Positions 39,459-43,011 of a stretch of 64,000 nucleotides of DNA are shown piece by piece. Positions within the stretch are counted from its first letter, which is position 1. The number at the start of each line of letters is the position of its first letter. A model generated the notes under the pieces. That model was not told the DNA's origin and did no database searches. It saw only the letters and a program-made list of their open reading frames with translations. Both the position numbers and the translations under genes were made by a program. Source of the DNA: Gammaproteobacteria bacterium (GTDB lineage: Bacteria > Pseudomonadota > Gammaproteobacteria > Steroidobacterales > GCA-2729495); contig QUBU01000011.1 of the NCBI GenBank assembly GCA_014337915.1, positions 1 through 64,000 of the forward strand, written 5' to 3'.

Positions 39459-40418
39459 ATGCCGCGCATGACCGATGCGACCCCCGCCCGTGAAGCCCCG
39501 CGCTCCGGGTTCTTCCAGCGCCTGAAACAGAAGCTCAACCGCGGCCTCGGCCTCGGCGTGGCGCTCGACTGGCTGGCGGGACGCAAGCTCGACCCGGCGG
39601 TGCTGGCCGAACTCGAGGACCAGCTGCTGCTGGCCGACGTCGGCATCGAGACCAGCGAGCGCATCATCGAGGGGCTGCGCCGGCGCATCGGCCGCGAGGC
39701 CATCGTCGACGAGGCAGGTGCGCGCGCCGCGCTGGCCGCCACGCTGGTGGAAATCCTGCAGCCGCGGGCGCAGCCGCTCGTCATCCCGCGTGGCGGCAAG
39801 CCGTTCCTGATGCTGATGATCGGCGTGAACGGCTCGGGCAAGACCACCACGATCGGCAAGCTCGCCCGCCGCTACCGCGACGAGGGGCTGAAGGTGATGC
39901 TGGCCGCCGGCGACACCTACCGCGCCGCCGCCATCGAGCAGCTGCAGGCCTGGGGCGAGCGCAACTCGGTGCCGGTGATCGCGCAGCAGCCGGGCGCGGA
40001 TTCCGCGGCGGTGGTCTTCGATGCGCTGCAGGCGGCCACTGCCCGCGGCTACGACCTGGTGCTGGCCGACACGGCCGGGCGCCTGCAGAACCAGGCCGGC
40101 CTGATGCAGGAACTCGCCAAGGTGGTGCGTGTCGCCGGTCGCGTCGATCCGGCAGCGCCCCACGAGAAGATGCTGGTGCTCGATGCCAGCCTCGGCCAGA
40201 ACGCCATCAACCAGGCGCTGCAGTTCCACCAGGCCGTGGGGCTGACCGGCATCAGCATGACCAAGCTCGACGGCGGCGGCAAAGGCGGCGTACTGCTGAC
40301 GCTGGCCGATCGCCTCGACGTGCCTTTCCGCTACGTGGGCGTCGGCGAGGATGCCGCCGACCTCGACGTCTTCGACGCGCAGCAGTTTGCTGCGGCACTG
40401 GCTGGCACCGCGCCGTGA
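39459..40418 (+). CDS. ftsY: Signal recognition particle receptor FtsY
   Basis: 319 residues. SRP-type GTPase that docks ribosome-nascent chains to the membrane. The NG domain has the P-loop GVNGSGKTT (122-130), DTYRAAAIEQLQ, the DTAGR G3 motif and TKLDGGGKGG. The acidic A domain that precedes NG in E. coli is almost absent here; only a short charged helix (FFQRLKQKLNRGL) that can bind membrane remains. First gene of ftsYEX, coupled to ftsE by GTGA. Confidence 0.97.
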   Translation: MPRMTDATPAREAPRSGFFQRLKQKLNRGLGLGVALDWLAGRKLDPAVLAELEDQLLLADVGIETSERIIEGLRRRIGREAIVDEAGARAALAATLVEILQPRAQPLVIPRGGKPFLMLMIGVNGSGKTTTIGKLARRYRDEGLKVMLAAGDTYRAAAIEQLQAWGERNSVPVIAQQPGADSAAVVFDALQAATARGYDLVLADTAGRLQNQAGLMQELAKVVRVAGRVDPAAPHEKMLVLDASLGQNAINQALQFHQAVGLTGISMTKLDGGGKGGVLLTLADRLDVPFRYVGVGEDAADLDVFDAQQFAAALAGTAP

Positions 40419-41116
40419 TCCGGCTCGACAAGGTCACCAAGCTCTACAGGGGCGGCCGCGAGGCGCTGCGCGAGGTCTCGCTGGACATCGGCCCGGGCGA
40501 GATGATCTTCCTCACCGGCCATTCCGGTGCCGGCAAGAGCACCATCCTCAAGCTGCTGGCACTGGTCGAGCGCCCGACCCACGGCCAGCTGCTGGTGGAC
40601 GGGCGCAACATCGGGCGCCTGCCAGCGCGGGAGATTCCCGCCTACCGGCGCCAGATCGGCATGGTGTTCCAGGATCACAAGCTGCTCGACGGGCGCTCGG
40701 CCTTCGACAACGTCGCCCTGCCGCTGGTCATTGCCGGTCTCACGCGGCGCGAAATCGAAAAGCGCGTGCGCGCCGCGCTCGACCAGGTCGGACTGCTCGA
40801 CAAGGAGCGCCAGGCGCCGCGGACGCTCTCGGCGGGCGAGCAGCAGCGGGTCGGCATCGCCAGGGCGGTCGTGGCGCGGCCCCGACTGCTGATCGCCGAC
40901 GAACCCACCGGCAACCTCGATGCCGAGCTGTCGCTGGAGATCATGCAGCTCTTCCGCCGCTTCAATGACGTCGGCGTGACCATGGTGATCGCCACCCACG
41001 ACCTGGTGCTGGCCGGGCGCGTCGGTGGCCGGCACGTGCTGCTGAACCATGGCCAGGTGCAGGACGGCGGCGCGGCGCCGGCCACGCCGGCACAGTGCTC
41101 GACGGGCCAGGCGTAA
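40415..41116 (+). CDS. ftsE: Cell-division ATP-binding protein FtsE
   Basis: 233 residues. ABC ATPase with Walker A GHSGAGKS (35-42), signature LSAGE (138-142), Walker B LLIADEP (158-164) and the family's VFQDHKLLDGRSAFDNVALPL. FtsEX links ATP hydrolysis at the septum to periplasmic amidase activation. The GTG start overlaps the ftsY stop. The last ~15 residues are a nonconserved tail. ftsX follows 6 bases later. Confidence 0.97.
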   Translation: MIRLDKVTKLYRGGREALREVSLDIGPGEMIFLTGHSGAGKSTILKLLALVERPTHGQLLVDGRNIGRLPAREIPAYRRQIGMVFQDHKLLDGRSAFDNVALPLVIAGLTRREIEKRVRAALDQVGLLDKERQAPRTLSAGEQQRVGIARAVVARPRLLIADEPTGNLDAELSLEIMQLFRRFNDVGVTMVIATHDLVLAGRVGGRHVLLNHGQVQDGGAAPATPAQCSTGQA

Positions 41117-41122
41117 CGACAG

Positions 41123-42037
41123 ATGGGCACATTCCTCACCCGCCACCTGCAGAACGCGCTCGCCGCGCTTGGCCAGCTGAGCCGCCAGCCGGTGGCGACG
41201 CTGCTCACCGTCGGTGTCATCGGCATCGCGCTGGCGCTGCCGGCCAGCCTGCAGTTGCTGGTGCAGGGCGGCCAGCGCTTCGCCGGCGGCTGGTCCGGCA
41301 TCCGCGACTTCTCCGTGTACCTGAAGCCGGGCACCGACCTTGCCGTGGCACGCAACCTGGCGCGCGCGCTGGCCAGCCACCCGAACGTGCAGGACACGCG
41401 GCTGATCGAGGCCGACGCGGCGCTGGCCGAATTCGGCCGCGACCCGGCATTCGGCGAGGCGCTGAAGGCACTGAAGAGCAACCCGCTGCCACATACGCTG
41501 GTGGTGCGGCCCGATGCGGAAGCGGCGCCGGCCGACCTCGATGCCCTGAAGGCCGAGCTGGCGGCGAAGCCCGAAGTCGACCTGGTGCAGCTCGACACCC
41601 AGTGGCTGCTGCGCCTGGCCGCCATCCTCGACCTGGTCCGCCGCGGCATCTGGATCGCCGCCGTGGTGCTGGTCGCGGCGGTGATCTTCATCGTCGGCAA
41701 CACCATCCGGCTGGACATCCAGAACCGGCGTCAGGAGATCGAGGTGTCGAAGCTGCTGGGTGCGACCGACGCCTTCGTGCGCCGGCCGTTCCTCTACATC
41801 GGCTTCTGGTACGGGATGCTCGGCGGGGCCGTGGCCCTGCTGCTACTGGCCTCGGTATTGCTTCTGCTCCGTGGCCCACTGGAGCGCCTGCTGCAGCTCT
41901 ATAGCGTTGATTTTACTGGCTTTGGCCTGTCCCCCGGCACGGCGCTGCTGGTGCTGGGGGCCGGCCTGGTGTCGGGCTGGGCCGGTGCCTGGCTGGCGGT
42001 GGGCCGCCACCTCTCGGCCATCGAGCCGCAGGTGTAA
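41123..42037 (+). CDS. ftsX: Cell-division permease FtsX
   Basis: 304 residues. The FtsX topology is clear: a cytoplasmic N-terminus (RQPVATLLTVGVIGIALALP as span 1), a periplasmic domain (FSVYLKPGTDLAVARNLARAL...), then three C-terminal spans with the NTIRLDIQNRRQEIEVSKLLGATDAFVRRPFLY cytoplasmic loop that couples to FtsE. It regulates EnvC-type amidase activators at the division site. Third gene of ftsYEX; rpoH follows behind its own promoter. Confidence 0.97.
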   Translation: MGTFLTRHLQNALAALGQLSRQPVATLLTVGVIGIALALPASLQLLVQGGQRFAGGWSGIRDFSVYLKPGTDLAVARNLARALASHPNVQDTRLIEADAALAEFGRDPAFGEALKALKSNPLPHTLVVRPDAEAAPADLDALKAELAAKPEVDLVQLDTQWLLRLAAILDLVRRGIWIAAVVLVAAVIFIVGNTIRLDIQNRRQEIEVSKLLGATDAFVRRPFLYIGFWYGMLGGAVALLLLASVLLLLRGPLERLLQLYSVDFTGFGLSPGTALLVLGAGLVSGWAGAWLAVGRHLSAIEPQV

Positions 42038-42090
42038 GTCATTGATCTGTCATGCTGCGGCACTGACCTGACCGGGAACCTTGGCGGTCG

Positions 42091-42119
42091 TTAGCACTCA
42101 AACCGGGCGAGTGCTAGGA
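42091..42119 (+). promoter_or_regulatory. CIRCE operator (HrcA) overlapping the rpoH promoter
   Basis: TTAGCACTC (42091-42099), a 9-base spacer, GAGTGCTAG (42109-42117): 17 of the 18 arm bases match the CIRCE consensus, with only the last G for A. A sigma-70-like pair coincides with it: TTAGCA (42091-42096), 17 bases, TAGGAT (42114-42119), each 4/6. The operator would therefore cover the promoter. HrcA binds CIRCE and releases it on heat shock. HrcA itself is not in the window. Confidence 0.9.
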
Positions 42120-42147
42120 TGACTTCAGCAAGGAGGATCCCGATTCC

Positions 42148-43011
<864 letters not shown>

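Follow-up and report, generated by a model that had tools for sequence, protein, structure and literature searches.

Sigma-32 and HrcA are presented as alternative heat-shock systems in textbooks, whose accounts derive from E. coli. A CIRCE operator at rpoH was predicted in 2004 in the deltaproteobacterium Geobacter sulfurreducens (PMC545781, Table 8). That operator resembles the one described here in its consensus, in the gene it precedes, and in its similar distance to it (there -51 to the start codon). However, in G. sulfurreducens hrcA-grpE-dnaK-dnaJ also has a CIRCE, whereas the hrcA locus here has none, and the portion of that account considered here does not mention an overlap with a sigma-E promoter (PMC545781). 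The same paper cites Permina and Gelfand (2003) for the HrcA/CIRCE regulon of beta-, gamma-, and epsilonproteobacteria, in which, as far as the citing text goes, regulator and operator are the same as here. That study may be the source of the statement, in an earlier, sequence-only reading of this DNA, that CIRCE on rpoH had been noted only in some beta- and gammaproteobacterial lineages.

The rpoH P3 promoter of E. coli is established as a promoter transcribed by sigma-E (PMC8103513, PMC9866376). A sigma-E promoter thus lies ahead of rpoH there, as is proposed for the present locus; however, E. coli has neither CIRCE nor HrcA, whereas here the operator and the putative sigma-E -10 element have bases in common. 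CIRCE at rpoH has therefore already been predicted and sigma-E transcription of E. coli rpoH P3 established, and a literature search, with most subscription journals outside its scope, found no report of the overlap of both, that is, of CIRCE interleaved with a sigma-E promoter at rpoH.

CIRCE in the ftsX-rpoH gap and the predicted HrcA regulon of the genome

The window (the whole 64-kb stretch of DNA that was analyzed) contains the gene order ftsY-ftsE-ftsX-rpoH on the plus strand. All four genes scored above the NCBIfam equivalog cut-offs: ftsY (39459..40418; TIGR00064, 321.6 bits), ftsE (40415..41116; TIGR02673, 278.5 bits), ftsX, directly upstream of rpoH (41123..42037; TIGR00439, 318.6 bits), and rpoH, encoding the heat-shock sigma factor sigma-32 of 287 amino acid residues (42148..43011; TIGR02392, 397.5 bits, with the cut-off at 323.1). 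The 110-base gap between ftsX and rpoH contains a CIRCE, two promoter signatures, and a ribosome binding site, AAGGAGG (42130..42136, plus strand).

The CIRCE, TTAGCACTC-AAACCGGGC-GAGTGCTAG, occupies 42091-42117 of the plus strand and is palindromic. Its arms, TTAGCACTC-N9-GAGTGCTAG, match the consensus of the HrcA binding site, TTAGCACTC-N9-GAGTGCTAA, at 17 of 18 bases, and 30 bases (42118-42147) lie between it and the rpoH ATG at 42148. With up to three mismatches allowed, it was the sole match in the window, and none was found in 100 shuffles of the sequence, which bears out the placement of a 17/18 CIRCE 30 bases ahead of rpoH by the sequence-only reading. That this site is a chance palindrome has practically negligible probability: besides the result for the shuffles, its position is conserved in the order and the class, and this conservation already refutes such an origin.

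The genome (2.72 Mb, 96.4% complete) carries one hrcA (TIGR00331, 335 bits), which adjoins grpE and dnaK. Two CIRCEs were found genome-wide with up to three mismatches, one at rpoH and one at groESL, so that the search for hrcA and further operator copies that had been proposed from the sequence yielded one regulator gene and a single additional site. No CIRCE was present ahead of hrcA, grpE, dnaK, or rpoE at the loci examined, even with up to six mismatches. No CIRCE-based autoregulation of HrcA is therefore seen, and the visible HrcA regulon consists of groESL and rpoH. Repression of rpoH by HrcA is the best reading of this arrangement, in which HrcA would bind the operator and lower rpoH transcription.

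The CIRCE ahead of groESL, in this genome as in the order, is the same operator and is probably served by the same repressor. In the order (L001, positions 1501-1527, and the relatives L005-L032), it lies immediately behind a promoter of the sigma-32 type (CTTGAAA...CCCCTAT) and, unlike the operator at rpoH, is accompanied by neither a sigma-E -10 nor TAAAAT. In the genus to which the window belongs, the sigma-32 -10 ahead of the groESL CIRCE looks degenerate.

Promoter signatures overlapping the operator

A putative sigma-70 -35 element, TTAGCA (42091..42096, plus strand), forms the start of the left CIRCE arm and matches the consensus at four of six bases. The putative -10 element, TAGGAT (42115..42120, plus strand), lies over the right arm; it also matches its consensus (TATAAT) at four of six bases and is weaker than the family-wide TAAAAT, a strong -10. 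The overlap of these two hexamers with the CIRCE arms was recognized correctly in the sequence-only reading, but they are separated by N18 and not by N17 as given there. Conservation of TTAGCA is inseparable from that of CIRCE itself. To the right of the operator, an alignment of 147 distinct rpoH-CIRCE loci, anchored on CIRCE, showed an A-A-T block immediately after the right arm, which generates the sigma-70 -10 TAAAAT. The third base past CIRCE was T in 143 of 147 loci and in 64 of 66 held-out loci, and TAAAAT was complete in 63/148.

The same alignment revealed a second signature. Columns -60 to -18 were near random (at most 0.13 bits), and the conserved blocks outside the arms included GGAACTT at -16 to -10 and T-A-A as the first three spacer bases. 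Together with the TC at the end of the left arm, which is shared with CIRCE, these blocks read GGAACTT-N16-TC[T/A]AA. The sigma-E consensus consists of GGAACTT, 15-17 bases, and TCNNA. The window carries an element that fits GGAACTT-N16(+-1)-TCNNA and matched the sigma-E search pattern exactly, namely GGAACCT (42075..42081, plus strand; -16 to -10 relative to CIRCE) and, after N16, TCAAA (42098..42102, plus strand), in which TC is the end of the left arm and AAA lies in the CIRCE spacer; its -35 is weaker than the family consensus. The promoter proposed from the sequence alone, with its conserved -10 over the right arm, was accordingly retained but was incomplete, having missed this second, sigma-E type promoter.

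The register of the -35 element relative to CIRCE was examined in several sets of loci. In an offset scan requiring at least five of seven matches to GGAACTT, the element was at -16 in 84/147 loci, and it fell within one base of that position in 99 of 135 non-redundant discovery loci. Among 66 loci of the class sample outside the discovery set, it was at exactly -16 in 37, compared with 1.6% per offset elsewhere (p ~6e-49), although the loci share ancestry and binomial p-values therefore overstate their independence; the flanking columns are saturated nonetheless. A third set had the element in register in 24/35 loci. In the family of the window, the -35 was at -16 in 22/25 loci, and A occupied the third spacer base in 24/25. 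The -35 and -10 elements also co-occurred within loci (odds ratio 14, p ~5e-15).

As a control, 19 groESL CIRCEs from the order were used (20 rows, of which L078 is an rpoH locus). None of the 19 had a -35 at -16, and none had A at the third spacer base. The opposite end of the CIRCE spacer, used as a mirror control, was without such a bias. A preference of HrcA as the cause of the spacer bias was rejected because both the groESL CIRCEs and the mirrored spacer end lacked it. The genome encodes RpoE (292.8 bits), and GAACTT-N16-TCTAT, with the same consensus and spacing, lies upstream of rpoE as expected for a promoter of the autoregulatory type. A stringent sigma-E pattern was also tried as a genome-wide regulon finder; it gave four matches, equal to the reversed control, and was uninformative beyond the match at rpoH.

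CIRCE might repress the sigma-70 promoter only, as the sequence-only reading had it, with the conservation of GGAACTT and TCTAA reflecting something else, such as an activator site. The TAAAAT on the right arm, the most constant element outside CIRCE by the counts above, is in line with this, as is the existence of CIRCE-rpoH loci that have no in-register sigma-E -35. We regard it as unlikely, since both halves fit the sigma-E consensus and spacing and co-occur within loci, the region upstream of rpoE in the same genome matches, and E. coli rpoH P3 is a known sigma-E promoter (PMC8103513). The in-register element is missing from roughly one-quarter to one-third of the CIRCE-rpoH loci, and the sigma-E element is thus common but not obligatory. 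In three loci (L237, L238, and L239), GAACTT was found ~15 bases further upstream, with an offset peak at -31/-32, and TCTAA adjoined CIRCE with no shared bases, which suggests a second sigma-E arrangement offset upstream of the operator.

Proposed gating of rpoH by HrcA

We consider it probable, from the layout of these elements, that the ftsX-rpoH gap is a compact control element in which a single HrcA operator is interleaved with two promoters and HrcA gates both inputs to rpoH. The sigma-E promoter (GGAACCT-N16-TCAAA) would begin its -10 with the two bases that close the left arm, and the sigma-70 promoter (TTAGCA-N18-TAGGAT) would take the outer ends of both arms. Because HrcA on CIRCE would cover the sigma-E -10 and the region from the sigma-70 -35 to its -10, it should block both promoters. 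The predicted transcription start sites are ~42108 for sigma-E and ~42127 for sigma-70.

In Bacillus subtilis, GroE keeps HrcA active and is titrated by unfolded protein. A corresponding GroE step is presumed here: in unstressed cells, GroE would keep HrcA folded, and HrcA bound to CIRCE would exclude both polymerases, so that rpoH and groESL would be expressed at low levels. Unfolded protein would titrate GroE, HrcA would become inactive, and rpoH and groESL would be released together. Transcription of the released rpoH could then be driven by sigma-70, and additionally by sigma-E if the envelope were also stressed. The status of GroE would in this way gate both envelope-stress and housekeeping input into rpoH. 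HrcA binding, repression, the use of the two promoters, and their start sites are, like the GroE step, predictions of this model, and they are base-precise and testable in culturable relatives. If the model is true, the availability of GroE is a gate for sigma-32 synthesis, and three stress circuits are joined within 46 bases.

Occurrence of CIRCE at rpoH in the order and the class

In the same order, CIRCE was present in 76 of 79 genomes, usually in two copies, and matching of the sites to rpoH positions identified the second copy as the one ahead of rpoH. Among 30 rpoH loci of relatives, 29 had a CIRCE ahead of the gene with up to four mismatches; in the remaining locus (L188, genome G024), the spacer was N10 instead of N9, and the sigma-E -35 was still at -16. 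The three genomes without CIRCE (G051, G064, and G075) belong to one family of the order and also have no hrcA. Their rpoH genes (L185, L186, and L187) are located elsewhere, not behind ftsX, and are preceded by a sigma-32 like CTTGAAAAA...GCCCCCA, as if autoregulation had taken the place of HrcA control at rpoH.

The class was sampled with 370 genomes and is understood in the GTDB sense of Gammaproteobacteria, which includes the betaproteobacteria. hrcA was found in 277 of these genomes and a strict composite CIRCE-rpoH pattern in 76, all 76 of which carry hrcA (hypergeometric p ~1e-11, not corrected for ancestry). As a measure of prevalence the strict pattern was rejected: 76/370 is a bad undercount, since loci with TTGGCACTC variants or with longer leaders escape it. 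A relaxed test was therefore applied to the rpoH upstream regions of 39 hrcA-positive genomes missed by the strict pattern, taken in handle order and not by content. CIRCE was present at rpoH in 35/39 of these genomes versus 1/16 hrcA-negative genomes (Fisher p ~5e-9). The sole hrcA-negative genome with the operator is G092; hrcA is present in a congener (G225), so that the gene may be lacking only in the assembly of G092. Taken together, the strict and relaxed figures imply a CIRCE at rpoH in ~93% of hrcA-positive class members. In a pattern scan of public genomes, the matches listed were spread over many genera, including Pseudoalteromonas, Methylocaldum, Thioalkalivibrio, Nitrosomonas, Aromatoleum, Advenella, and Silanimonas.

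The operator therefore holds its position ahead of a heat-shock gene and is lost with hrcA. The view in the sequence-only reading that CIRCE is seldom seen on rpoH was not supported by this survey: the arrangement is the usual state where hrcA exists in the class, and it is also predicted in G. sulfurreducens. Judged by these genomes, the rpoH CIRCE is real but typical, recurring in most beta- and gammaproteobacteria that retain HrcA; it is not a rarity, nor is it confined to this genome.

In E. coli, sigma-32 is controlled largely at the levels of translation and stability. This would favor an explanation in which CIRCE is a relic, HrcA is irrelevant to rpoH, and control is post-transcriptional as in E. 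coli, through an RNA thermometer and through DnaK and FtsH. Such an explanation is very improbable, given that the arms are kept while the flanks are saturated over hundreds of loci, and that CIRCE has disappeared along with hrcA. Over its first 160 nt, the predicted rpoH mRNA folded no better than shuffles and gave no sign of a thermometer beyond them (z 0.09), which as a single test is weak evidence. Under HrcA control of rpoH, RNA thermosensing or sigma-32 proteolysis of the E. coli type could nevertheless dominate over transcription.

In most of the hrcA-bearing class members sampled, HrcA would stand above sigma-32, on an operator that also carries an envelope-stress promoter. For a wider proposition we see about equal grounds for and against: that the standard rpoH element of HrcA-keeping beta- and gammaproteobacteria is a CIRCE whose arms double as sigma-E and sigma-70 -10 elements, with a single repressor gating the envelope-stress and housekeeping supply of sigma-32, and that regulation of the E. 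coli type was derived after the loss of HrcA.

Two further rpoH leaders departed from the common form. In the hrcA-less genome G129 (L296), the leader retains a AGTGCTAATAT remnant, as if the right arm and its -10 alone had survived. In genome G125 (L295), a tandem pair of CIRCE-like sites, with 0 and 3 mismatches, lies ahead of rpoH.
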